This document shows, piece after piece, positions 25,995 through 37,181 of a DNA stretch of 43,670 nt. Below the pieces are notes generated by a model. It ran no database searches. It saw only the letters and a program-made list of their open reading frames with translations, and was not told the DNA's origin. The translations under genes were made by a program, and so were the position numbers. This DNA is from Candidatus Nanopelagicaceae bacterium (lineage in GTDB: Bacteria; Actinomycetota; Actinomycetes; Nanopelagicales; Nanopelagicaceae). The DNA is taken from positions 1 through 43,670 of the forward strand of contig CANGLK010000009.1 in NCBI GenBank assembly GCA_947454735.1, read 5' to 3'. How positions within the stretch are numbered: position 1 is the first letter of the stretch; every line of letters starts with the position of its first letter.

Positions 25995-26873
25995 TCAGCG
26001 CGAAGATTCGCTCCTGACCACAAGGTAAACACCCATGAGAAGAATTGCGCCTGCGATGAGCTGAATTCCTCCGAGGCGTTGATCAAATGCAAAGTAACCA
26101 ACAACTCCGGCAACAAGTGGATTGACGAAGGCAAATGAGGTTAAGAGAGCTGGTGAGACTCTCCGTGAAATACCCAAGTAAGCCCAATACTGAGATGCAA
26201 GTGCTGCAACGAGGAAGATCATCGATGGATTAATGAAATCGCTCATCCCAGGTGCCGGTGTGTTACTGAAGGCGTGAACAATTGTTGTACCAATCGCCCC
26301 AATGAATACCTGTAAGAAGATAGCGAGAATGAGTGGGTAGCCAGTCTCATATTTGATCCATATCTCAGTTGCCGCAAACCAGGCGAAGGTTGAGATTAGT
26401 GCGCCGATAATTCCAGCAATCTGAACATCACCTTGCGGTGCGCCAATGAGAAATATGACTGCAATTGATGCAACTACAACTCCGGAGGTCGCAAGTGGAG
26501 ATGGTCGCTGCCCTTTTAATGCCAAGAAGATGATCGACATTGCAGGAAGAGTTGAGTAGATCAGCGCTGTAATTGCCCCCGGAACTCGTGAGCTCGACCA
26601 GGCAAGAGTCATGCTGCAGATTGGCGAGTAGAGAAGTGAAGAAATAACGATAGGAATTAATGACTTATCGAATCGAATTTCTCTGAGAGAGCGAGGGGCC
26701 ATCACGAGCACTGCGATGAGCAGGATGGTAGCTGCGCCCCAAGCTCGGATGAGAACGATATTGATTGGATTGATCGTCCCTGCTGCATGCGAGAGGAAGG
26801 GATAGATTCCACCGCCAACAAACCACATGACCGCAAGACCGAAGATGGTCGAGCGGCTCAAGCGGTTAGTCAT
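25995..26873 (-). CDS. EamA/DMT-superfamily transporter
   Basis: 292 aa with about ten membrane helices arranged as two EamA repeats (MWFVGGGIYPFLSHAAGTINP in the first, FAATEIWIKYETGYP opening the second). DMT transporters export or import small metabolites such as amino acids and their analogues; the substrate cannot be read from the sequence. It follows the reductase gene by 23 nt on the same strand and may be the last gene of the long catabolic operon, which would suit export of an end product or uptake of a related solute (inference). Confidence 0.8.
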   Translation of the reverse strand: MTNRLSRSTIFGLAVMWFVGGGIYPFLSHAAGTINPINIVLIRAWGAATILLIAVLVMAPRSLREIRFDKSLIPIVISSLLYSPICSMTLAWSSSRVPGAITALIYSTLPAMSIIFLALKGQRPSPLATSGVVVASIAVIFLIGAPQGDVQIAGIIGALISTFAWFAATEIWIKYETGYPLILAIFLQVFIGAIGTTIVHAFSNTPAPGMSDFINPSMIFLVAALASQYWAYLGISRRVSPALLTSFAFVNPLVAGVVGYFAFDQRLGGIQLIAGAILLMGVYLVVRSESSR

Positions 26874-26896: not shown

Positions 26897-27787
26897 CTAC
26901 TTGAAGCGAAGAGGTGTATTTGTATCGTCTTCGTACATCTTCGCAGGAATCATCTCACCGGCCTTATCGCCGTAACGGGCGCGTGCGCGACGATAGACAT
27001 TCTCGACAGTTGCACCAACTTCCATTGGAACTCCAACGGAGCGAGCGAGATCCCCGGCGAGGCGAAGATCCTTACACGCAAGAGCAACAGCAAATCCTTC
27101 GTCGTAATCGCCATCCTTGAGCATGCCTACGATGTCGCGCTCTAGGAGGATAGAGTTACATGGAGATCCGATCAAAGATTGACGAAGTACTTCAAGGTCC
27201 ACGCCTGCCTTGACTCCGAGAAGGAGTGCCTCTGTCGTTGCAACAAATGAGTTGAACCAAAGCATATTGAGAACGAGCTTTACCGCATAACCAGTTCCGC
27301 GTTCTCCGCAGTTAAAGAACTTTGCTGGATCTCCCATGATGTCAAAGAGTGGCTTGGCATAAGCAAAATCTTCGCCCGATCCACCAGCGAAGATCGACAT
27401 TGTTCCCTTATCTGCACCGACCGACATACCTGCAACAGGTGCATCGATAATGCGAACCGAGGAATCGAGAGCCTTCTCTACAGCCTTTGCTGTCTCTGGC
27501 ACTGAGGTAGACATATCAATCCACATTGAACCTGGCTTCATTGCAGCTGCAACGCCCCCAGCAATCATGCAACCTTCAATCGCCTGCGGTGTCGGAAGCA
27601 TTGTGATGAGGACATCTGCACCGGATACGCAATCGACGCCAGAAGTTGAACCCTTTGCCCCCGCTGCAATCGGCTTCTGCATGCTCTCTGTATTCAGGTC
27701 AAAGACAGTGATATCAATGCCAGCTAACGCCAGGTTGCGCGACATGCTTCCGCCCATACTGCCTGTTCCAATAAATGCGACCTTCAC
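26897..27787 (-). CDS. NAD(P)-dependent 3-hydroxyisobutyrate-dehydrogenase-family reductase
   Basis: 296 aa. N-terminal Rossmann fold GTGSMGGSMSRNLALAGIDI (residues 7-26), substrate-binding DAPVAGMSVGADKGTMS near 116-132, and the catalytic Lys in GTGYAVKLVLNML near 170. The family oxidises beta-hydroxy acids (3-hydroxyisobutyrate, tartronate semialdehyde in the reducing direction, and others). Start is GTG 27787 with AAGGAG 5 nt upstream. It lies 29 nt downstream of the aldehyde dehydrogenase gene on the same strand, so it should act on a hydroxy acid or semialdehyde in the same pathway (inference). Confidence 0.88.
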   Translation of the reverse strand: MKVAFIGTGSMGGSMSRNLALAGIDITVFDLNTESMQKPIAAGAKGSTSGVDCVSGADVLITMLPTPQAIEGCMIAGGVAAAMKPGSMWIDMSTSVPETAKAVEKALDSSVRIIDAPVAGMSVGADKGTMSIFAGGSGEDFAYAKPLFDIMGDPAKFFNCGERGTGYAVKLVLNMLWFNSFVATTEALLLGVKAGVDLEVLRQSLIGSPCNSILLERDIVGMLKDGDYDEGFAVALACKDLRLAGDLARSVGVPMEVGATVENVYRRARARYGDKAGEMIPAKMYEDDTNTPLRFK

Positions 27788-27816
27788 CTGTGCTCCTTAG
27801 GGTTGTTGTGAATGAA

Positions 27817-29307
27817 TTAAGAGAGATCAATCCAAGTTGTCTTCAGTGCGCTGTAATTCTCAAGTGCATGAAGCGACTTATCGCGACCAGCACCTGAACC
27901 ATTAAAGCCACCGAAAGGTGTGATGACATCAGATGCATCAAATGTATTGACCCATACCGTGCCTGCACGAAGTTTGCGGGCGAAGTTATGTGCGCGAGAG
28001 ATATTGCCCGACCAGACAGATGCGGCAAGTCCGTACTCAGTGCCATTTGCCTTTGCAAGTGCATCAGCCTCATCAGTTGCATCAACTGCGACGATTACTG
28101 GACCGAAAATCTCTTCTTGCGAGAGGACGGAGTCGTGCTTGACTCCATCAATCAGCGTTGGCTTAATCAGAGTGTCGCCGCCTTGTGGTTGTTCGCCACC
28201 ATAGATGAACTTCTCGCCGTTGGCACCGACTAGATCGAGGTAGTGATTAACGCGATCGCGCTGTTGCGTTGAGACGATAGGGCCCATATAGACACTCGGA
28301 TCTAGGCAATCTCCGACTGGGAAGGTATCTACAAATGCAGACATCTTCTCGAAGAGCTGTTCTTTAATCTTCTGACCTTGAACAATAACTCGCGATCCTG
28401 CATTACAAGTCTGTCCTGCGTTGTAATAGATACCCCATGCAAGAGTTGATGCACATGCATCGAGATCCTTTACATCATCAAGAACAACTTGTGGGCTCTT
28501 GCCACCGAGTTCGAGAGCGACCTGCTTCATATTTGACTCAGCTGCATACTGAAGCATCTTCCGTCCTGTTGGACCGCTTCCTGTGAATGCAAGCTTTGCA
28601 ACATCCATGTGACGAGCAAGTGCTTGACCTGCTTCTGGTCCAAGACCAGTGACAACGTTAAAGACACCGTTGGGCATTCCTGCCTCTGTCGCAAGTCGCG
28701 CAAGGAGAATTGCGGAGAGTGAAGATTGCTCAGCAGGCTTGAGTACAACGCTATTGCCCATAGCAACTGCTGGCGCAACCTTCCATGATGCGATGATTAT
28801 TGGATAGTTCCACGGAACGACTGCGCCGATAACTCCGAGTGGTTCGCGTGTAATCATGGCAAGTGCGTTGCGCGGAGCAGGTGCTATCTCATCGTAAGTC
28901 TTATCGATTGCTTCACCATACCACTGGACTGTTCGAGCGCAGCCCATAACATCAACGTTGAGAGAGTCAGAGATTGGCTTACCCACATCGAGAGTCTCAA
29001 GTAGCGCTAGCTCTTCTTGATGTTCGCGAATGAGATCTGCCCATTTGAGCATGATTGCTTTCTTATCGCGTGGATTCATCTCGCGCCATACGCCAGAATC
29101 AAATGCAGCTTTACCAGCTGCCACGGCACGATTGACATCTTCGGTATCGCCGGCAGCAATCTTTGCAATGACGCGTTGATCGCGCGGTGAGATATCATCG
29201 AAAGTCCTGCCTGATACAGAATCTACATATGCACCGTTGATGTACATACGAGCCTCTGGCTTAAGTTCGAGGGCACGCTTAACCCATGCATCTTTATCTA
29301 ACGCCAC
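27817..29307 (-). CDS. Aldehyde dehydrogenase, PuuC-like
   Basis: 496 aa from GTG 29307. Catalytic Cys in YYNAGQTCNAGSRV, general-base Glu in ALELGGKSPQ, and the NAD site FTGSGPTGRKM are all present. The C-terminus (VWVNTFDASDVITPFGGFNGSG and KSLHALENYSALKTTW) resembles gamma-glutamyl-gamma-aminobutyraldehyde and betaine-aldehyde dehydrogenases. A longer frame to 29358 exists, but the GTG at 29307 has AAGGAG 6 nt upstream and clears the previous gene's stop at 29318. In this operon it would oxidise an aldehyde derived from the imported solute, possibly an amino- or betaine-aldehyde; this is inference. Confidence 0.9.
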   Translation of the reverse strand: MALDKDAWVKRALELKPEARMYINGAYVDSVSGRTFDDISPRDQRVIAKIAAGDTEDVNRAVAAGKAAFDSGVWREMNPRDKKAIMLKWADLIREHQEELALLETLDVGKPISDSLNVDVMGCARTVQWYGEAIDKTYDEIAPAPRNALAMITREPLGVIGAVVPWNYPIIIASWKVAPAVAMGNSVVLKPAEQSSLSAILLARLATEAGMPNGVFNVVTGLGPEAGQALARHMDVAKLAFTGSGPTGRKMLQYAAESNMKQVALELGGKSPQVVLDDVKDLDACASTLAWGIYYNAGQTCNAGSRVIVQGQKIKEQLFEKMSAFVDTFPVGDCLDPSVYMGPIVSTQQRDRVNHYLDLVGANGEKFIYGGEQPQGGDTLIKPTLIDGVKHDSVLSQEEIFGPVIVAVDATDEADALAKANGTEYGLAASVWSGNISRAHNFARKLRAGTVWVNTFDASDVITPFGGFNGSGAGRDKSLHALENYSALKTTWIDLS

Positions 29308-29317
29308 AATGTACTCC

Positions 29318-30421
29318 TTACGCGACAGACTTTTTAAAGAGAGACCAGTTTGGCTCAATTCCTAGACCAGGTGCTGCTGGGACATGAAGAAGTCCATCAC
29401 TTCCGACGAGCATCGGCTCTGCCATCAGGAAGTCGCGACGCTCTGCCGTCCATGTCGGTGGATCAAATGGGAATTCAATAAATGGAGCACTTCCGATTCC
29501 TGCAGTCACCTGAAGGTTGGCAGCGAGACCGTACCCATTAGACCAGGTATGTGGCGTGAAGATATGGCCACGTGACTTTGCTAGCTCAGCAATCTGAATA
29601 GAGTGGTGCATACCTGCGGCGAGGACAACATCTGCCTGAATGACATCAAGGGCATCGTTCTCTACAAGTGTAAGAATTTCATGAATAGTACGGACCATCT
29701 CGCCGCCAGCAATACGGGTACCGCGACCACGAAGAGATTTAAGGCCTTCGATATCCTCCATGGGAAGTGGCTCTTCAATCCAGTAGACACCGTATTCAAC
29801 TGCAGCATCCACGAAGTTCATCGCTGTCTTACGATCAATTGATTTACGAGTATCACCTGGCATGCGCCATGCCTGATTGAGGTCGACCATAATTTCTAAA
29901 TCATTCCCGACCTCTTCGCGAATAAGCTTAAGAGTTTCGATTCCGAGGTCGAGCTGTGTCTGAGGTACGCGAATCTTCATCGCCTTATATCCGGCATCGC
30001 GAATAGCCCGTGCGCTCTGTGCTCGCTCTGGCGCTGTCATCACTGCACCAGTTGATGCGTATGCAGGAATTGATTTCTCAGCGCCACCAAAGAGTTGTGC
30101 AACTGTCTGGTTCTTCGCCTTGCCAATTGCATCCCAGATTGCAGCCTCTATCGGCCAGTATCGACCGGCGTGAAAAGTGATTGTCTCGAGAGTACGCACA
30201 TGCTCTTCGATATCAAAGAGATCCTTACCGATAAAGTACTTCTCGTATCCATCAAAACCGCCCATATCATCGCCTGCGCCATACCCGGTGACACCTCCAT
30301 CTGTTTCGATGATTGTGAGGGTCGCGCCAAATGTACGACGTGGAGTTGGGTCCCAGTTAGGACAAAATGGCGGATCGAGTTGTAGGGAGGTGCGTTCAAA
30401 GCGAACGTTAGTAATCTTCAA
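29318..30421 (-). CDS. Enolase-superfamily enzyme, mandelate racemase subgroup
   Basis: 367 aa. The capping domain (about 1-125) is followed by a (beta/alpha)7-beta barrel with the mandelate racemase residues in register: K149-x-R151, metal ligands D180, E216 and E241, the D264/H291 general acid-base dyad, and E316. Spacings D264-H291 (27) and E241-H291 (50) equal those of mandelate racemase. The usual second Lys of K-x-K is Arg here. Members racemise, epimerise or dehydrate carboxylates via an enolate. The start appears to be TTG 30421 (TTG AAG ATT ACT), with no good ribosome binding site. Context with a betaine-type importer makes a betaine epimerase or acid-sugar dehydratase possible; neither is shown. 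Confidence 0.85.
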   Translation of the reverse strand: MKITNVRFERTSLQLDPPFCPNWDPTPRRTFGATLTIIETDGGVTGYGAGDDMGGFDGYEKYFIGKDLFDIEEHVRTLETITFHAGRYWPIEAAIWDAIGKAKNQTVAQLFGGAEKSIPAYASTGAVMTAPERAQSARAIRDAGYKAMKIRVPQTQLDLGIETLKLIREEVGNDLEIMVDLNQAWRMPGDTRKSIDRKTAMNFVDAAVEYGVYWIEEPLPMEDIEGLKSLRGRGTRIAGGEMVRTIHEILTLVENDALDVIQADVVLAAGMHHSIQIAELAKSRGHIFTPHTWSNGYGLAANLQVTAGIGSAPFIEFPFDPPTWTAERRDFLMAEPMLVGSDGLLHVPAAPGLGIEPNWSLFKKSVA

Positions 30422-30451
30422 GGCGTACTCAAATCTATGTAGTAGTGGAAA

Positions 30452-30955
30452 TTACTTCTGGCGGAAGAATGGATTAGCAACGTTTTCAGATGCCTTAATG
30501 ACATCTGCTGCAGTGGGCCTTCCGTTCTTGCCATTGGTAAGAGCATCAATCATGGCTTGACGTTGATTTTGATAGACCTCTTCCTCGTCATTGGCGCTCG
30601 GGTTTAACCAAACAGCTGCAATGATCACGAGGTCATCGGTTGAATTAACATCGATAATTCCAGTGCGCAGGGCCTCTCCGACTCCTGCTGCAACACCTGC
30701 TTGAGCCGCTCCCCAAGTAAAGAGACCGTGTTGATCTCCCTCAACCGCTGCCTTATTTACAAAGAGCGTAGGAGGTGTAACTGCGACTCCGGGTTGGGCT
30801 ACGACCATATATGGCACGTGACCCGCGCGAGGAGTGGCAAGGGCTGTTGCCCATGCCACTCCAGCGGGCCCAGATCGGGCTCCGAGAATTGTGTTGGTGT
30901 GTGCCGCATTAGGGCCTGAACCCACAAAGCCTTCGCCGATCTGGATTTCAATCAT
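30452..30955 (-). CDS. fae: Formaldehyde-activating enzyme homologue
   Basis: 167 aa, the usual Fae length. Family features: GEGFVGSGPNAAHTNTILGARSGPAG with the conserved His19 at the position of the Fae catalytic His17, then GVAWATALATPRAGHVPYMVV, TLFVNKAAVEG near 62-72, and WGAAQAGVAAGVGEAL near 79-94. In methylotrophs Fae joins formaldehyde to tetrahydromethanopterin. Actinobacteria are not known to make that cofactor, so the role here may be a different acceptor, a formaldehyde trap, or another aldehyde. It lies 4 nt after the binding-protein gene stops, inside the betaine-type transport operon, so formaldehyde may arise from demethylation of the imported compound (inference). Confidence 0.85.
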   Translation of the reverse strand: MIEIQIGEGFVGSGPNAAHTNTILGARSGPAGVAWATALATPRAGHVPYMVVAQPGVAVTPPTLFVNKAAVEGDQHGLFTWGAAQAGVAAGVGEALRTGIIDVNSTDDLVIIAAVWLNPSANDEEEVYQNQRQAMIDALTNGKNGRPTAADVIKASENVANPFFRQK

Positions 30956-30959
30956 CTTA

Positions 30960-31892
30960 TTACTTTACCAATCCTGATGCTGACAAGAAGCTCTTCGCAA
31001 CTGTGTCTGCATCTTCGCCGAGAACGTCAACACGAGCGTTGAGGTTCTGCATTGTTGCATTGCTGATCTTTGCTGCAATTGGAGCCAAAGCCTTTACGAG
31101 CTGTGGGTACTTCTTTGCAGTTGCATCAGTCATTGTGATTGCAGCGTTGTAAGGTGGGAAGTAAGAGATATCTTCTGATGGCACCATCAAGCCAAGAGCT
31201 CCGATGCGTCCGTCAGTTGCGAATACTTCACCAACCATGCACTGTCCATCCTTTGTCGCCTGGTAGATAGCACCAGTATCAAGGACCTTAGTTGTGATAT
31301 TTGAATCTGAGATTGAGTAAGCCTTCTTAAAGCCTGCCCATCCATCGGGACGGCTCTGGAACTCTGACTCTACACACCATGCAGATCCTGCAGGAAGCTT
31401 CTTTGCGAGATCTGAGTATGTCTTGATGCCGTACTTAGTTGCATTTGCCTTTGTGATTGCCCATGCATAAGTATCATTAAATGAAGTCATAGGTCCCCAT
31501 GTGACCTTGTTCATCTTGTCGCCAGCGGCGACCTTGGTGTAAAGAGTGCTTGGAGCGATATTTACATCAGTCTGCTTCTGGTATACCAACCATGCTGTAC
31601 CTGTATATTCCCAGTACAAGTTGATATCTCCGCTGACCATAGCTTCACGAGTTGTTGAAGAACCCTTGATGTTTGTCTTATCAACGACAGTTCCACCGTT
31701 AGCGATGATGAACTGCTTCACTATCTTTGAAAGAACGATTGACTCTGTGAAGTCCTTCGAACCAACAATGACCTTAACTCCCTTGAGGGACTTTCCAGCT
31801 GCGTTAGCTGATGTTGATGTTGCGACTGTTCCGACAACTGCGAGAGCAATTGCAGCTGCAATAGCAACTACTTTGTGGCTTTTTACCTGCAT
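30960..31892 (-). CDS. Osmoprotectant/betaine-type ABC transporter substrate-binding protein
   Basis: 310 aa. Signal peptide of about 32 residues ending SANA/AGKS, without a lipobox Cys. The mature part is OpuAC/ProX-like: VIVGSKDFTESIVLSKIVKQF near 41-61, INLYWEYTGTAWLV near 96-109, and RIGALGLMVPSEDISYFPPYNAAIT near 218-242. The family binds quaternary amines such as glycine betaine, choline or carnitine in an aromatic cage; the Trp and Tyr in LYWEYTGTAW and SYFPPYN are candidates. AGGAAGG precedes the ATG. A catabolic rather than osmotic role is suggested by the enzymes encoded downstream. Confidence 0.88.
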   Translation of the reverse strand: MQVKSHKVVAIAAAIALAVVGTVATSTSANAAGKSLKGVKVIVGSKDFTESIVLSKIVKQFIIANGGTVVDKTNIKGSSTTREAMVSGDINLYWEYTGTAWLVYQKQTDVNIAPSTLYTKVAAGDKMNKVTWGPMTSFNDTYAWAITKANATKYGIKTYSDLAKKLPAGSAWCVESEFQSRPDGWAGFKKAYSISDSNITTKVLDTGAIYQATKDGQCMVGEVFATDGRIGALGLMVPSEDISYFPPYNAAITMTDATAKKYPQLVKALAPIAAKISNATMQNLNARVDVLGEDADTVAKSFLSASGLVK

Positions 31893-31911
31893 TTTTTACC
31901 CTTCCTAGGTA

Positions 31912-32703
31912 TTAAATCCCTCGTGGTCGAAGGAGTTCTTCAGCAGCACGTGCAAGCCAATCCATTGTGAATGCCACAATAACTGTGAGCACTCCTCCGG
32001 TGACTAGTACGAGCTCCCGATTGAGCTTTAGGCCAGGGATAATCAACGTCCCTAGACCTCCCCCGTTAACAAAGACACCTAATGTGGCGATGCCAACGGT
32101 AAGAATGAGTGTGGTGCGAACACCGGCCAGAATAACTGGCACAGCGAGTGGGAGTTCGATCTGACGAAGCGCTTGCTTAGGCGTCATACCCATACCCATC
32201 GCTGATTCGATAATAAATGGATCAATCTCTTGCAGGCCCACGATGGTGTTACGCAAGATAGGAAGGATTCCAAAGGCAGCAAAAGAGAAGATTGCAATCG
32301 GCTTTCCGAAGCCAAAGAGGATTCCAGCGATGATGAGGACGCCGACAGCAGGAAAAGCCTGTCCGATGTTGGCAAGAATCAAAACAATTGGTGTGAACTT
32401 CTTATAGCGACGACGGGTCAACAAGATTCCTGCAGGAACAGCGACGGCGAGAATCACTGCAGCAGATGCGAAGGAGAGGATGAGGTGATCCTGAATCGCT
32501 CTGAAGATAAATGCCTTGTTGATTGTTACTTTCTCGATGACATCAAGATGTGCGCGGCTCAAACTGAGCGCGAGTCCTAACGAGAGAAGAGCGATAAGAA
32601 TCGGTTGAATAATGAGTGAGCGATGGCGCTTAAAAATCAAACGAGCAGATTGCGAGTAGAGAGATCCCGCAGTCAGGTTTGGTTTTGCAAGTGCCTTTGC
32701 CAT
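31912..32703 (-). CDS. Osmoprotectant-type ABC transporter permease
   Basis: 263 aa with about six membrane helices. The binding-protein-dependent transport motif ESAMGMGMTPKQALRQIELPLAVP (EAA loop, about 150-173) contacts the ATPase. HLILSFASAAVILAVAVPAG and GILPILRNTIVGLQEIDP match OpuCB/OpuCD-type permeases. Compared with the other permease of this operon it has an extra 60-residue N-terminal extension with one further helix. It starts 2 nt after the ATPase gene stops and forms the transporter with the permease at 33664-34347. Confidence 0.9.
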   Translation of the reverse strand: MAKALAKPNLTAGSLYSQSARLIFKRHRSLIIQPILIALLSLGLALSLSRAHLDVIEKVTINKAFIFRAIQDHLILSFASAAVILAVAVPAGILLTRRRYKKFTPIVLILANIGQAFPAVGVLIIAGILFGFGKPIAIFSFAAFGILPILRNTIVGLQEIDPFIIESAMGMGMTPKQALRQIELPLAVPVILAGVRTTLILTVGIATLGVFVNGGGLGTLIIPGLKLNRELVLVTGGVLTVIVAFTMDWLARAAEELLRPRGI

Positions 32704-32705
32704 GG

Positions 32706-33671
32706 TTACTGAGCTCCTGCACGTGTGTGAGAGATTGCACTTTGGAGAGCTTCAAATGTGAGGTGGCCTTTTGTGCCGACGTTAATCGCCTTTGCGCCAG
32801 TAATGAAACCTTCCATCGCCTCGCGAAGAGTTGCTGTCTCAGGAAGTGTTGGGCCGTCAGCAGTTCCTGATGCAAGGCTGACGCTTGCAAGTGAAACTAG
32901 TCCGAGCATACGAACACTTGCAGCTTCTCCTACAAAACTTTCAACTTTCTTCGTTGCAGGTGCAGAGAGAATCTCAAGTGGAGTTCCATACTGCTCAACC
33001 TTTGACTGCTCTGAGAGAACTGCGATGCGATCTCCAAGGAGAAGCGCTTCTTCAAAGTCGTGAGTAACGAAGACAACAGTCTTCTTGAGTTCGCGCTGAA
33101 GTGCACGGAACTCTTTCTGAAGACGAACACGAGTAATCGGATCTGTTGCACCGAATGGTTCATCCATCAGAAGTACAGCTGGGTCAGCAGCAAGTGCTCG
33201 CGCAACACCAACGCGCTGCTGTTGTCCACCTGAGAGTTGCTTTGGATAGCGCGCACCGTATTCAGATGGATCGAGTCCTACGAGCTCAAGGAGTTCGTTT
33301 ACTCGTGCCCTTGTCTTTGTCTTATCCCAACCTAGGAGTTGTGGAACAGTCGCAACATTGTCTGCAATTGTCATATGTGGAAAGAGGCCGATTTGCTGAA
33401 TTACATAGCCGATATTTCGACGTAGTTCATGCGCTGGAGTCTTTGTTACATCCTCGCCGCCGATGACGATACGTCCTGACGATGGCTCGATAATGCGGTT
33501 TATCATCTTCATCGTTGTGGTCTTGCCGCAACCTGAAGGACCAACGAATACGACGCACTCACCTGCGGGGATTACAAGGTTGAACTCAGATACCGCATCC
33601 TTCGCGGTATTGGGATAGCGCTTGGTCAGCTTCTCGAGACGAATTTCTTGACCGTGAGTTGTACTAGACAC
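32706..33671 (-). CDS. Osmoprotectant-type ABC transporter ATPase
   Basis: 321 aa. Walker A GPSGCGKTT near residues 38-46, Q-loop GYVIQQIGLFPHMT, signature LSGGQQQRVGVARAL, Walker B VLLMDEPFGATDP and H-loop VFVTHDFEEAL are all present. The match is to the OpuCA/ProV group. The C-terminal 70 residues are a regulatory-type tail (EKVESF-like segment, then LREAMEGFITGAKAINV) that looks like a single degenerate CBS half rather than a full CBS pair. It overlaps the first permease gene by 8 nt (33664-33671). Confidence 0.92.
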   Translation of the reverse strand: MSSTTHGQEIRLEKLTKRYPNTAKDAVSEFNLVIPAGECVVFVGPSGCGKTTTMKMINRIIEPSSGRIVIGGEDVTKTPAHELRRNIGYVIQQIGLFPHMTIADNVATVPQLLGWDKTKTRARVNELLELVGLDPSEYGARYPKQLSGGQQQRVGVARALAADPAVLLMDEPFGATDPITRVRLQKEFRALQRELKKTVVFVTHDFEEALLLGDRIAVLSEQSKVEQYGTPLEILSAPATKKVESFVGEAASVRMLGLVSLASVSLASGTADGPTLPETATLREAMEGFITGAKAINVGTKGHLTFEALQSAISHTRAGAQ

Positions 33672-34347
33672 GAAGCCCCCTTGGAGTTGTTACGCGACGG
33701 ATAAGAACAAAGACTCCATCGAAGATCAGCGCGAGCAGAGTGATGCCGAACGCTCCTACGAGAGTTTGATTCATAGAGTTGAATGAACCTAGATTTGCAA
33801 GACCACTAAAGAGATAATCACCAAGTCCTGGACCGCCGACATATGCAGCAATTGCTGAGATGCCGAAAATCAACATCGCAGAAACACGAATGCCGACAAT
33901 GATGACCGGCCATGCAAGTGGAAATTGAATCTTGCGAAGAATAGTTAATGGGCGCATTCCCATAGCTGCAGCAGATTCCATAATCGCTGGCTCTACAGAT
34001 CGAAGGCCAACAATTGTGTTTCGTACTACCGGAAGTTGTCCGTAAAGGACGAGTGCAATAACTGCTGGCAACCAACCCAAACCAAATGGACCGATGAAGA
34101 AGATAAACATTGCAAGTGATGGGATTGTGAAAACGATAGACCAGAAGCTGGTAACGATTTCAGAGACTGTCGTTGATTTCCAGACAAGTAAACCTGTAAC
34201 GATTGCAATGATTGAAACAAGAGTCATTACTAATAAAACTAATTCAATCTGCGCAATGACATCGTGAATAATCTTTTCGCGTTGTACCGAAATAAATTGC
34301 AAGAGATTCGGCGGCGTTAGCGGCACCAGAAAGTCTTCCATCTTCAT
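33664..34347 (-). CDS. Osmoprotectant-type ABC transporter permease, first gene of the operon
   Basis: 227 aa, about five to six membrane helices. The EAA loop MESAAAMGMRPLTILRKIQFPLAWP lies near residues 142-166; PVVRNTIVGLRSVEPAIMES precedes it. It pairs with the permease at 31912-32703. First gene of the minus-strand operon, divergent from iclR with 66 bp between starts. ATG 34347 (MKMEDF) or the next ATG 34341 may be used; AGGAG lies 11 nt before the first, so 34347 is tentative. Confidence 0.9.
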   Translation of the reverse strand: MKMEDFLVPLTPPNLLQFISVQREKIIHDVIAQIELVLLVMTLVSIIAIVTGLLVWKSTTVSEIVTSFWSIVFTIPSLAMFIFFIGPFGLGWLPAVIALVLYGQLPVVRNTIVGLRSVEPAIMESAAAMGMRPLTILRKIQFPLAWPVIIVGIRVSAMLIFGISAIAAYVGGPGLGDYLFSGLANLGSFNSMNQTLVGAFGITLLALIFDGVFVLIRRVTTPRGLRV

Positions 34348-34374
34348 GCGAGCATCTTGCTCCTGCGAATTGGC

Positions 34375-34414
34375 CGTTGCAATAGGCGCACCGAGAGTTG
34401 TATTATTTGCAACG
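34375..34414. promoter_or_regulatory. IclR/operon divergent control region with CGTTGCAA inverted repeat
   Basis: CGTTGCAA (34375-34382) and TTGCAACG (34407-34414) are a perfect 8-bp inverted repeat with centres 32 bp apart (three turns). The plus-strand -10 TATTAT (34401-34406) lies between them and is followed by 7 nt and the iclR GTG at 34414, so the right arm covers the transcription start of a leaderless iclR message. This is a good candidate for IclR autoregulation and operon control. Confidence 0.6.
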
Positions 34415-35181
34415 TGCCTAATTCACTCGTGCGTAATAACGGTTTAGAGCGAGATCTCGAAATAATCGAGGCTGTTGCTGCAGCATCACCCGTTCCCCAG
34501 CGCAATGGAGACCTTGCAATCGCTACATCACGCGAGAAGAGTCAGATTTCGCGCGCTGTTTCTCGCTTGTTAGATAACGGTTTGTTACTTAGACAGGGTG
34601 CCGGTGTCATCGTTGGTCCGCGCCTTTATGCAATGGCGCGATACACATTCGAAGCACAGCTCGTCACTGCGGCCAGAGGTGAGCTTCACGGCCTTGTACA
34701 TAAACTTGGCGAAACTGTTCATATGACCGTTCTGCAAGGTTTAGAAGTTGTCACGATTCATTCTGAGTCACCTGCCCACGGTTTTCGTGCGCTGAGTTGG
34801 ATGGGTGTAACAGCGCCTTCTTATATGACTTCATCTGGTCGCGTACTTCTATCGGGGCTCGATGATGATCAGATTGAACGCATCTACCCACTCAAGAAGA
34901 AGATCGATGGCGCTCCCCCTCTCTGTCTGACAAAGAATGGTGATGAGCTCATCAAAGTAATACATCAGATTCGCAAGGATGGATTTGCAACCGTCAATGA
35001 AGAGTATGAACCAGGACTCGTTGGAGCCTCTGTACCAATTCGTGATTTCAGTGGTTCAATTGTCGCGGCGATCAACGTCGCTGCACCAAAAGCTAGATTT
35101 GAAAGCAATCTCATAGCTGCGGCAAATGAGATGAAGGCCGCATCAGAACGTATAACAAAGAAACTAACTCACACCAAGTAA
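34414..35181 (+). CDS. IclR-family transcriptional regulator
   Basis: 255 aa from GTG 34414. The N-terminal winged helix (about 5-65: LERDLEIIEAVAA, then SREKSQISRAVSRLLDNGLLLRQGAG) is followed by the IclR effector domain (GETVHMTVLQGLEVVTIHSE, SYMTSSGRVLLSGL, FATVNEEYEPGLVGASVPIRDFSG, SIVAAINVAAP). A longer frame from 34357 exists, but TATTAT ends exactly 7 nt before the GTG, supporting the internal start. IclR proteins sense a pathway metabolite, often a small carboxylate, and commonly control divergent catabolic operons. It is divergent from the betaine-type transport and Fae operon and upstream of the iron-dependent alcohol dehydrogenase, so it probably controls both. Confidence 0.88.
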   Translation: MPNSLVRNNGLERDLEIIEAVAAASPVPQRNGDLAIATSREKSQISRAVSRLLDNGLLLRQGAGVIVGPRLYAMARYTFEAQLVTAARGELHGLVHKLGETVHMTVLQGLEVVTIHSESPAHGFRALSWMGVTAPSYMTSSGRVLLSGLDDDQIERIYPLKKKIDGAPPLCLTKNGDELIKVIHQIRKDGFATVNEEYEPGLVGASVPIRDFSGSIVAAINVAAPKARFESNLIAAANEMKAASERITKKLTHTK

Positions 35182-35210
35182 CAACATCAACCACGAGATA
35201 AAAAAGGCAG

Positions 35211-36350
35211 ATGATGAATACATTCACACTTACACCTGGCTCAGTTAATATTCGCTTCGGAGCAGGTTCTGTTGCACAACTTCCTGAAGTTGTTGCTGGG
35301 CTCAATAAGAAGAAGGTTTTCATCGTCACAGATCCCGGTGTTGCATCTGCTGGAGTTCTTGCAAAGGTTGAAGCCATTCTCGCCTCAGCTGGCATAGAAA
35401 CAGCGTCATACACTGACATTAAGCCCAATCCAACGACGACCTTGATTGATGCTGCTGCCAAGGCTGGCGTGGCATTCGGGGCAGATTGCATCGTCGCACT
35501 CGGTGGAGGATCATCTCTCGACTCATCAAAGGGAATTGCTCTCGTTGTTGCAAATCCAACATTTTCTTCAGCAAAGTTTGATTACTCAATTACTCCAGAC
35601 CGCCCTGCCGTTCCAATCATTGCTATTCCGACAACATCAGGAACTGGCTCTGAAACAAATAACTGGGGCGTCATCGATGATCCCATTCGTCAATGCAAGT
35701 TCTATGTTGGCGATGTGAGCACCACACCTGTCGTAGCAATCCTCGATCCAGAGCTCACACTTGGACTACCTTCTCGCCCAACAGCAGGTACAGGAATCGA
35801 TGCGCTGACACATGCAATTGAATCTCTCACTTCTAAGGGAAGCTCACCCGTCTCTGAGGCATATGCCCATCAGGCGGTAAAGCTGATCTCTCGTGCACTG
35901 CCTATCGCAGTAAAAGATGGCCAGAACGTTGATGCACGTGGCGATATGTTGATGGGTGCTCACCTAGCAGGACTTGCACTTACATTGTCAGGTCTTGGAT
36001 TAGTTCACGGTATCGCTCACTCTGTCTCTGCTCATGTTGGCGCAGCACATGGTGAAGCACTTGCAACCGTACTTCCAGAGGTAATGCAATTTAATGCTCG
36101 CGAAGTTAGTGACATCTATGCAACCGTTGGAAACGATATGGGAGTCTCCGCAAACTCTGACACCGCAATTGAGGCTGTTCGTGATCTCTCAGATTCAATC
36201 AGCATCCGCAATTCACTCTCTCATTACGGGGTTACGCAGGCGATGGTCTCAGATATTGCCAAGACTGTTCTCGCTGACTCAGTCACTGGAAACAATCCAA
36301 TTGCGCCGAGCGCTGGTGAGGTCGAGGGAATCCTTACTTCACGCCTCTAA
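35211..36350 (+). CDS. Iron-containing alcohol dehydrogenase
   Basis: 379 aa. The N-terminal NAD domain has the GGGSSLDSSKG loop (98-108); IPTTSGTGSETNNWGV (139-154) follows. The metal ligands are D197 and H201 (GIDALTHAIE), H266 (GLVHGIAH) and H280 (GAAHGE), typical of group III Fe-dependent dehydrogenases. The family reduces aldehydes or oxidises alcohols, including methanol/formaldehyde in some members, 1,3-propanediol and hydroxyacids. Start is ATG 35211 or 35214, with AAAAAGG upstream. It lies 29 nt after iclR on the same strand and probably belongs to the same regulon as the Fae operon, where it could reduce an aldehyde intermediate (inference). Confidence 0.9.
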   Translation: MMNTFTLTPGSVNIRFGAGSVAQLPEVVAGLNKKKVFIVTDPGVASAGVLAKVEAILASAGIETASYTDIKPNPTTTLIDAAAKAGVAFGADCIVALGGGSSLDSSKGIALVVANPTFSSAKFDYSITPDRPAVPIIAIPTTSGTGSETNNWGVIDDPIRQCKFYVGDVSTTPVVAILDPELTLGLPSRPTAGTGIDALTHAIESLTSKGSSPVSEAYAHQAVKLISRALPIAVKDGQNVDARGDMLMGAHLAGLALTLSGLGLVHGIAHSVSAHVGAAHGEALATVLPEVMQFNAREVSDIYATVGNDMGVSANSDTAIEAVRDLSDSISIRNSLSHYGVTQAMVSDIAKTVLADSVTGNNPIAPSAGEVEGILTSRL

Positions 36351-36404: not shown

Positions 36405-37181
36405 ATGACAACGAAGATGCCGGCGCTCTACATCGGACATGGCGCACCGCTACTCCTTGATGATCCCGTCTGGAGCGGTGAACTCGCTGCGATTGCAAAG
36501 AAGTTTGATAAGCCCAAGGCGATCTTGATTATCTCGGCTCACTGGGAATCTGCACCTATTGCAATCACCAGCCCTTACGCTGGTACTCCGCTTGTCTATG
36601 ACTTCGGTGGCTTTGCACAAAAGTTCTTTGAGATGACTTATGAGACTCCTGATGCGACAGCTCTAGCTGCACGTATCTCTTCAATGATGCCTAAATCAGA
36701 TCCACTACATGAATCAAAGCGTGGACTCGATCACGGTGCATGGGTTCCGTTACGCGTGATGTATCCAGATCACGACATTCCTGTTCTGCAGATGTCTATG
36801 CCTACATCAGATCCTGGCAAGCTCATTGAGATTGGTCGTCGCCTTGCACCATTGCGCGATGAAGGTGTTCTTATTATTGGTTCTGGCTTTATGACGCATG
36901 GACTGCCATACCTTCGCGATTGGTCTATCAATGCGAAGGCACCGGGTTGGTCTTCAGAGTTTGATACATGGGCTGCAGAGCGCCTTGCAAAGGGTGATAT
37001 CGATTCACTTGCCGCATATAAAGATTTAGCTCCAGCAGTGCAGTATGCCCATCCCACTGTCGAACACTTCACGCCGCTCTTTGTCACACTCGGTGCAGGA
37101 GATGATATCGATGCAGCACCAGAGACACTTATTGAAGGCTTCTGGATGGGGCTTTCAAAGCGTTCGCTACTCGTTGCCTAA
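36405..37181 (+). CDS. LigB-family extradiol dioxygenase (DODA/YgiD-like)
   Basis: 258 aa. Class III extradiol ring-cleavage fold. Metal ligands and active-site residues appear in ALYIGHGAPLLLDD (His near 12), ILIISAHWES (His near 46) and YAHPTVEHFTPLFV (His near 218 and 223), with DHGAWVPLRVMYP near 110. YgiD/DODA members use Zn2+ or Fe2+ and cleave catechols such as 4,5-DOPA. The physiological substrate in heterotrophic bacteria is often unknown. It carries its own promoter and palindrome, so it is probably controlled separately from the preceding iclR and dehydrogenase genes. It ends 1 nt from the stop of the convergent kinase gene. Confidence 0.86.
   Translation: MTTKMPALYIGHGAPLLLDDPVWSGELAAIAKKFDKPKAILIISAHWESAPIAITSPYAGTPLVYDFGGFAQKFFEMTYETPDATALAARISSMMPKSDPLHESKRGLDHGAWVPLRVMYPDHDIPVLQMSMPTSDPGKLIEIGRRLAPLRDEGVLIIGSGFMTHGLPYLRDWSINAKAPGWSSEFDTWAAERLAKGDIDSLAAYKDLAPAVQYAHPTVEHFTPLFVTLGAGDDIDAAPETLIEGFWMGLSKRSLLVA

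Follow-up and report, generated by a model that had tools for sequence, protein, structure and literature searches.

Organization and conservation of the cluster

We analysed a cluster of ten genes in an acI-type freshwater actinobacterium (Candidatus Nanopelagicaceae bacterium, contig CANGLK010000009.1 of assembly GCA_947454735.1; source genome of 1.40 Mb in 75 contigs, 89.5% complete). The whole stretch of 43,670 nucleotides that was analysed is called here the window. Eight genes on the minus strand code for an ABC importer of OpuABC-type composition, i.e. an OpuAC substrate-binding protein (SBP), two permeases and an ATPase, for a protein of the formaldehyde-activating enzyme (Fae) fold that we call FaeX, and for a mandelate-racemase-type enzyme (MR), an aldehyde dehydrogenase (ALDH) and a hydroxyacid reductase (HAR). 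They are spaced by 2-30 bases or overlap; FaeX starts 4 bases past the SBP stop, and the MR gene lies 30 bases past the FaeX stop. An IclR-type regulator and an iron-containing alcohol dehydrogenase (FeADH) are divergent (Table 1). With moderate confidence we interpret the cluster as a catabolic unit for a quaternary-amine-type solute in which FaeX acts as a pterin-independent enzyme, a statement that excludes the C-N chemistry considered below. The ten genes, their families and coordinates and the divergent pair had been proposed in an initial annotation and were borne out by profile matches, with a corrected start for ALDH.

Scanning one genome per species with the window Fae protein yielded 11 acI-type loci. 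The ten genes have the same order and orientation in all 11, with Fae identities of 75-98%, and because this order is kept throughout, chance does not account for the arrangement. Conservation of gene order in related genomes, which the initial annotation had proposed as a check, was found. Absence of Fae from close relatives, named there as a possible refutation, was not seen in the acI clusters, which were themselves found via Fae and are silent on acI genomes without it; distant relatives without FaeX exist. The possibility that FaeX is an assembly artefact was ruled out by the identical order in the 11 loci. The relatives include Actinobacteria bacterium IMCC25003 (L003) and uncultured Candidatus Planktophila, and an additional member of the window's family (L080) again shows the ten-gene order. 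Two records titled Streptomycetaceae (L006, L007) carry acI-type clusters with Fae 80-89% identical to that of the window; their titles look wrong. The cluster is rare: of the 101 genomes in the window's family, 4 have the Fae domain PF08714. The corresponding counts were 12 of 199 for the G128 genus, 21 of 148 for the class to which G016 belongs, 7 of 149 for that of G175, and 17 of 396 for the Actinomycetota sample.

Table 1. Genes of the FaeX cluster and the matches on which their assignment rests
Gene	Product	Coordinates in the window	Strand	Supporting evidence
HAR	beta-hydroxyacid dehydrogenase / semialdehyde reductase, HIBADH type	26897..27787	-	PF03446, PF14833
ALDH	PuuC/BADH-like aldehyde dehydrogenase	27817..29307	-	PF00171, 520 bits
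MR	mandelate-racemase-type enzyme, enolase superfamily	29318..30421	-	PF13378, 171 bits
FaeX	Fae-fold protein, non-canonical branch	30452..30955	-	PF08714, TIGR03126, residue changes, tree, model
SBP	OpuAC-type substrate-binding protein	30960..31892	-	PF04069, 191.5 bits
PERM1	ABC permease, ProW/ChoW type	31912..32703	-	PF00528; ProW and ChoW best models, under cut-off
ATP	ABC ATPase, ProV type	32706..33671	-	TIGR01186, 304.8/326.6 bits
PERM2	ABC permease, ProW/ChoW type	33664..34347	-	PF00528
IclR	IclR-type regulator, divergent	34357..35181	+	PF01614, 104 bits
FeADH	iron-containing alcohol dehydrogenase, divergent	35211..36350	+	PF00465, PF25137

FaeX as a separate branch of the Fae fold

The window FaeX matches PF08714 with 154.1 bits (cut-off 27). 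Among plasmid records searched by tblastn (40 listed of 56 matching), homologues at 45-56% identity were found in Streptomyces clavuligerus, Burkholderia, Caballeronia and Ensifer; the remaining Fae homologues among the records listed are 29-32% identical. Three of the low-identity records place Fae amid mtd and mch genes, with a beta-RFAP synthase gene in two of these stretches. A Methylocystis stretch contains two Fae genes without neighbours of the mtd, mch or beta-RFAP synthase type. Five sequences, from the three mtd/mch-associated records and the Methylocystis stretch, served as the canonical Fae reference, and 69 FaeX sequences were compared with these five only.

His19, Lys68 and Gln85, which we take to be the active-site residues of Fae with the histidine as the catalytic one, are kept in FaeX: His19 is present in the window protein, in 68 of the 69 FaeX and in all five canonical Faes. 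At 15 positions that are invariant in the five canonical Faes, FaeX has another residue, itself at least 90% conserved. These changes include Asp->Asn21, Phe->His46, Val->Ala69, Gln->His76, Phe->Trp81, Phe->Trp116, Trp->Pro119 and His->Asn161. The canonical Asp replaced by Asn21 (68 of 69 FaeX) is presumably a pterin contact. Most of the changes are also present in eight more distant relatives. Retention of the catalytic residues together with changes elsewhere is expected if the same chemistry serves another compound.

In a tree computed with 6 of the 11 acI rows left out, the five canonical Faes formed one group (100/100) on a stem 2.19 changes per column long and attached beside the S. clavuligerus FaeX (98/89). 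This attachment may be due to long-branch attraction and so does not fix the direction of evolution. The AlphaFold2 model of the window FaeX (mean pLDDT 91.8) compares with Fae structures 1y5y and 1y60 at a TM of about 0.89 for 29-30% identity; the predicted structure thus has the same fold as Fae, with altered residues. The initial annotation had offered two readings, a dedicated formaldehyde step or recruitment of the Fae fold to a different substrate, and the second is the better supported.

FaeX is adjacent to MR or to an oxygenase in many loci

The partners of FaeX were surveyed in 62 loci, related genomes included, gaps being measured between tblastn-matched segments (L107 and L108 come from the same genome, G700, and the survey excluded L079 and L081, which are the same contigs as L003 and L009). 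An orthologous MR follows FaeX on the same strand, at a gap of 8-55 bp, in 30 loci: 12 acI-type, 10 in family f3, two in f19 and six from f21, f47, f60 and f102. In 13 loci, all from the class of G016, a gene for an HalD-like oxygenase precedes FaeX at -1 to 81 bp (L034-L040, L103, L107, L109, L111-L113). Pfam was applied to three of these oxygenases (L034, L037, L103), the rest being assigned by tblastn similarity (39-62%). All 13 contain WH[YF]D, which we take as the HxD pattern typical of hydroxylases rather than halogenases. None of the 62 loci has both partners, and as the two pairings are mutually exclusive, FaeX is suggested to carry out one chemical step beside either enzyme.

The HalD-like oxygenase and FaeX form an uncharacterised two-gene unit. 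Four further loci of the class of G016 (L100, L102, L104, L108) have an MR-type gene that is more distant and on the opposite strand. In L100, L104 and L108, two copies of a protein family of ~390 aa flank FaeX, with no Pfam match for the one tested (L108:8443-9615).

The association with MR was also visible at the genome level. MR at 40% identity or more was found in 21 of the 396 Actinomycetota genomes, i.e. in 8 of the 17 PF08714-positive ones versus 13 of the 379 others. The eight co-occurrences compare with 0.9 expected (Fisher p 2.7e-7, the genomes not being independent), and in all eight FaeX and MR are neighbours, 11-30 bp apart. The Fae-MR link is older than acI.

The importer and relatives without FaeX

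The nearest solved relatives of SBP are 8dp6 (an osmoprotection protein) and the ergothioneine-binding EgtUC, with choline-type binders among the relatives. Nine binding proteins from eight related loci outside acI are 37-42% identical to it and have motifs in common.

Ten genomes of the phylum sample with MR at 48-55% identity are outside the 17 PF08714-positive ones. In family f19, L123 and L124 contain OpuABC-MR-ALDH-FeADH without FaeX; L119 has the same set except that no outermost permease was called close to the end of the contig, and L120 and L122 hold truncated parts of the set. In family f40, OpuABC lies near or beside ALDH-MR-ZnADH, the last being a zinc-type alcohol dehydrogenase (L126-L128); L125 has ALDH-MR-ZnADH and no OpuABC in the part shown. 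A row of genes at L121:4778-14412 encodes a Rieske oxygenase, a FAD-GcvT protein like dimethylglycine dehydrogenase (DMGDH), IclR, MR, ALDH, FeADH and homocysteine S-methyltransferase, and is likely a quaternary-amine catabolic cluster. This Rieske protein has GbcA as its best NCBIfam model (148.3/670 bits) and counts carnitine monooxygenase 6y8j and the demethylase 4qup among its closest solved relatives; the FAD-GcvT protein is of the dimethylglycine/sarcosine dehydrogenase type. An MttB-family protein and another FAD-GcvT protein are present in L130 (MR 40-42%). On a plasmid of Paroceanicella profunda (L118:7384-10116), a Fe-ADH gene is followed by an MR 42% identical to that of the window, with no FaeX annotated nearby.

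In an MR tree of 34 rows, FaeX-linked and FaeX-free members are intermixed, which fits repeated gain or loss of FaeX. Judging from these FaeX-free clusters, the importer-MR-ALDH-ADH set is indicative of quaternary amines, and FaeX has the appearance of an add-on. The substrate class is rather probably a small zwitterion, the likeliest candidate being a hydroxylated quaternary ammonium compound resembling betaine or choline.

Tetrahydromethanopterin, formaldehyde and demethylation genes

Two markers only of tetrahydromethanopterin (H4MPT), MCH (PF02289) and beta-RFAP synthase (TIGR00144), were searched for in 22 genomes: the window's own, five acI (IMCC25003, L003, among them) and the 16 remaining PF08714-positive members of the phylum sample. 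Each was found in 0 of 22, the archaeal controls being positive. This search for H4MPT genes in related genomes, proposed by the initial annotation, led us to reject the idea that FaeX is a true Fae whose H4MPT is supplied by genes outside the cluster, IMCC25003 included. FaeX is very probably not H4MPT-dependent.

Pfam matches agree with the earlier statement that no demethylase or monooxygenase lies within the cluster. In the window's family, the Rieske family PF00848 was found in 0 of 8 genomes and DMGDH-type PF16350 was not found in 6 of 8. These six are the window genome (89.5% complete) and five other acI, one of them a complete chromosome; for this betaine demethylation pair the result is therefore 0/6 for both. 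Outside the family, all five FaeX-MR genomes tested have PF00848 and PF16350 somewhere. G128 has its best PF00848 match, its PF16350 match and a mycothiol formaldehyde dehydrogenase together in 16 kb, ~1 Mb from FaeX, which suggests that demethylation there runs apart from FaeX. That stretch, G128:C1:8170427-8185917, resembles a betaine demethylation region of its own. Matches to the model of mycothiol formaldehyde dehydrogenase were obtained in 13 of 13 genomes, exceeding its cut-off (512.9 bits) only in G128 and remaining under it in all eight family genomes tested.

The first reading of the initial annotation, uptake and demethylation with a formaldehyde step, is supported in part. The FaeX-free importer-MR-ALDH-ADH sets and the Rieske and DMGDH-like genes of L121 support its quaternary-amine theme, whereas the formaldehyde step lacks support in the window's organism, given the absence of H4MPT markers (0/22) and of PF00848/PF16350 (0/6) and the changed residues. 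The PF16350 genes of the two further FaeX-carrying family members, and the FaeX-MR genomes outside the family that have both demethylation families, leave this step some likelihood.

Wider contexts of FaeX

Genes of high-GC loci were called with rough custom scripts. The f3 loci have a sugar-type transporter of the major facilitator superfamily (MFS), an SSADH-like ALDH and IclR on one side and FaeX-MR-ALDH-HAR-FeADH on the other. In the f19 loci L031 and L033 we observed an amino-acid permease, an agmatinase-type ureohydrolase, FaeX-MR-ALDH-FeADH, a further ALDH, of which L033 holds the whole gene, and a class III aminotransferase. The company of such a ureohydrolase and a GABA-type (class III) aminotransferase, which FaeX keeps in L030, L031 and L033, suggests guanidino or aminobutyrate substrates for these f19 loci. 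The S. clavuligerus stretch reads OpuABC-FaeX-HAR-ALDH; no MR was found in it, and the segment between FaeX and HAR (L045:10541-11374) gave no Pfam match in the single frame tried. Caballeronia has FaeX, an aldo/keto reductase (AKR), SSADH and MFS, then IclR, and Ensifer an AKR-like gene, FaeX and ALDH, then Dpp-type transporter genes. A Dpp-type importer and zinc-type alcohol dehydrogenases (Zn-ADHs) surround FaeX-MR in G042, G111 and G175; such an importer was not found in the FaeX-MR stretch of G208.

Proposed function and alternatives

Under IclR control, the cluster would take up and degrade a small zwitterionic solute. The OpuABC-type importer would carry it in, FeADH and ALDH would convert an alcohol to an acid, MR would remove the proton beside the carboxylate (dehydration, epimerisation or elimination), and HAR would act on a hydroxyacid or semialdehyde. 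FaeX would be a pterin-independent member of the Fae fold working on a pathway intermediate. The condensation product of Fae is a C-N adduct, and the likeliest step for FaeX would be similar C-N adduct chemistry on another compound, the adduct coming from MR here and from a 2-oxoglutarate-type oxygenase in other bacteria. Hydroxylation beside nitrogen would give a carbinolamine, and MR-type dehydration beside nitrogen an enamine or imine; because both kinds of product invite it, C-N hydrolysis by FaeX could be envisaged. We propose only tentatively that FaeX hydrolyses or forms an iminium or carbinolamine. Slightly more speculative is the proposal that it represents a new enzyme type, a pterin-independent iminium/carbinolamine (C-N) hydrolase that would act as a portable module beside an adduct-making enzyme. 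This enzyme would be MR where quaternary amines are degraded, as in acI and others, and an HxD-type oxygenase in a different class of actinobacteria.

Several observations weigh against this interpretation. The window FaeX scores 130.3 bits with TIGR03126 (Fae), above the curated cut-off of 118.05, and the residue comparison covers five canonical sequences. Neither partner was found in 19 of the 62 FaeX loci, and 9 of the 17 PF08714-positive genomes are without MR at 40% identity. A single substrate class for all FaeX clusters is unlikely because their transporters vary (OpuABC, MFS, amino-acid permease, Dpp-type). PF16350 genes occur in two FaeX-carrying family members, one in G672 (= L009) and two in G683 (= L080). 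Finally, the Zn-ADHs that flank FaeX-MR in G111 and G175 reach 249-283 bits with mycothiol formaldehyde dehydrogenase (cut-off 512.9), so a formaldehyde-like theme may hold in these two genomes.

These last two observations also favour the alternative that fares best, though we consider it rather improbable: the solute would be demethylated and FaeX would join the formaldehyde to a carrier other than H4MPT, e.g. tetrahydrofolate or a thiol. The Fae fold with its catalytic residues, the betaine-type importer and the Rieske and DMGDH-like genes adjoining the same core in L121 are in line with such a step, as is the folate role proposed for Fae-like proteins in PMC11748545. However, L121 is the sole cluster with both demethylase types and is without FaeX, residues conserved in canonical Fae are changed, Rieske genes are lacking in the eight family genomes and DMGDH-type genes in six of them, and the demethylation-type and formaldehyde dehydrogenase genes of G128 are remote from FaeX.

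Catabolism of a sugar acid or another non-betaine compound, with MR as an acid-sugar dehydratase and FaeX acting on a hydroxy-aldehyde, appears unlikely. The best NCBIfam models of MR are indeed talarate/galactarate and galactonate dehydratases, all far under cut-off, and sugar-type MFS transporters occur in the f3 loci and Caballeronia; the OpuABC importers of acI, S. clavuligerus, L119, L122-L124 and L126-L128 and the Rieske and DMGDH-like genes of L121 argue otherwise.

A somewhat less plausible alternative is that MR is a trimethylamine lyase: ADH and ALDH would make a 3-trimethylammonio acid from which MR would eliminate trimethylamine, HAR would take the remaining acid and FaeX would serve a side step. 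MR-type enzymes commonly abstract a proton beside a carboxylate and expel a beta leaving group, importer-MR-ALDH-ADH sets occur without further genes in L123 and L124, and several conserved Trp in the MR alignment could bind a cation. Yet we know of no MR reaction that releases trimethylamine, FaeX would be left unexplained, and other transporters accompany FaeX-MR in f3 and f19. A non-catalytic sensor or binding role for FaeX, in line with the sensing or regulatory functions proposed for non-canonical Fae types in PMC11748545 and PMC3728764, is very improbable given the retention of His19 in 68 of 69 FaeX and the position of the gene between enzyme genes at short gaps.

Gene assignments and neighbouring genes

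Several enzymes of the cluster match families without reaching the cut-offs of NCBIfam models. HAR scores 180.8/291.6 bits with HIBADH and 175.8/340.75 bits with tartronate semialdehyde reductase, no equivalog cut-off being reached. The best model of ALDH is PuuC (559.6 bits versus a cut-off of 850), BADH gives 477.2 bits (under its cut-off of 668.6), and FeADH scores 293.6/523 bits with lactaldehyde reductase and 249.5/550 bits with the choline dehydrogenase GbsB. Neither FeADH nor ALDH therefore reaches the cut-offs of the GbsB and BADH pair that converts choline to glycine betaine. The MR contains the pattern of MR-type enzymes of the enolase superfamily, which we take to be KxK/R on strand 2, three acidic metal ligands and a His-Asp pair; the motifs KxR, DxNQ, EEP, GEM, QxDVV and PHTW are conserved across the FaeX-linked MR alignment.

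The ALDH gene probably starts at GTG 29307, with AAGGAG ahead, rather than at TTG 29358, which is disfavoured because it would overlap the MR gene. The true start of IclR is probably downstream of TTG 34357, alignments of relatives beginning further inside.

A DMT-type transporter-like gene (label by reading) at 25995-26873 of the window follows HAR and is matched there in all 11 acI-type loci; it may be part of the operon. The gene after FeADH (36405-37181) is presumably LigB/DOPA-dioxygenase-like; among the 11 loci, it has counterparts in L001 and L003.

Significance and comparison with known systems

Public databases label FaeX proteins formaldehyde-activating enzymes or 5,6,7,8-tetrahydromethanopterin hydro-lyases, and such labels could lead to a methylotrophy step being assigned by mistake to actinobacteria of freshwater and soil. 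Should FaeX carry out another reaction, a well-known one-carbon enzyme fold would also serve to degrade nitrogen compounds, and the cluster would point to an uncharacterised quaternary-amine route in lake bacteria. Direct tests of this question are possible through MR, the oxygenase that replaces it as partner, and the clusters that do without FaeX. Among the open-access papers listed, subscription papers being mostly outside the search, none was seen to treat FaeX together with MR or betaine importers, and none this cluster in Nanopelagicales; PMC5209427 contains both the terms Fae and mandelate racemase. The text of the acI genome paper PMC5301498, as far as covered, mentions formaldehyde once, for hexulose-6-phosphate synthase, and includes an osmoprotectant ABC transporter row.

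True Fae speeds up the condensation of formaldehyde with H4MPT, as described in passages of PMC8153426 and PMC8879981. FaeX resembles the extorquens Fae (1y5y/1y60) in its fold, in the presumed catalytic His, Lys and Gln and in its TIGR03126 score over the cut-off, but differs from it at 15 conserved positions, in the lack of H4MPT marker genes and in its location outside a C1 gene cluster. Fae-like groups 2-4, whose function is unassigned, have already been published with a tree that includes actinobacterial sequences and with proposed sensing or folate roles (PMC11748545). They are comparable to FaeX as Fae homologues beyond the two groups of known function, whereas a link to betaine importers or MR was not found in the text of that paper covered here.

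The importer is like those of the OpuB/OsmU type in having an OpuAC protein, two permeases and one ATPase; it differs in its score (136.9 bits versus an OsmF cut-off of 400) and in having EgtUC among its relatives. Compared with betaine demethylation by Rieske and dimethylglycine dehydrogenase proteins, such genes do occur beside the MR-ALDH-FeADH core in L121, but the Rieske family is absent from the eight genomes tested in the window's family. The 4-hydroxyproline betaine epimerase (HpbD) pathway also places an MR-type enzyme, along with an importer, in a gene cluster for quaternary-amine catabolism. The 60 solved MR relatives listed, of 159, did not include HpbD. The FaeX cluster shares with this pathway an MR-type enzyme in an importer-bearing cluster, here of the probable quaternary-amine type, and differs from it in having ALDH, ADH and FaeX in place of demethylases.

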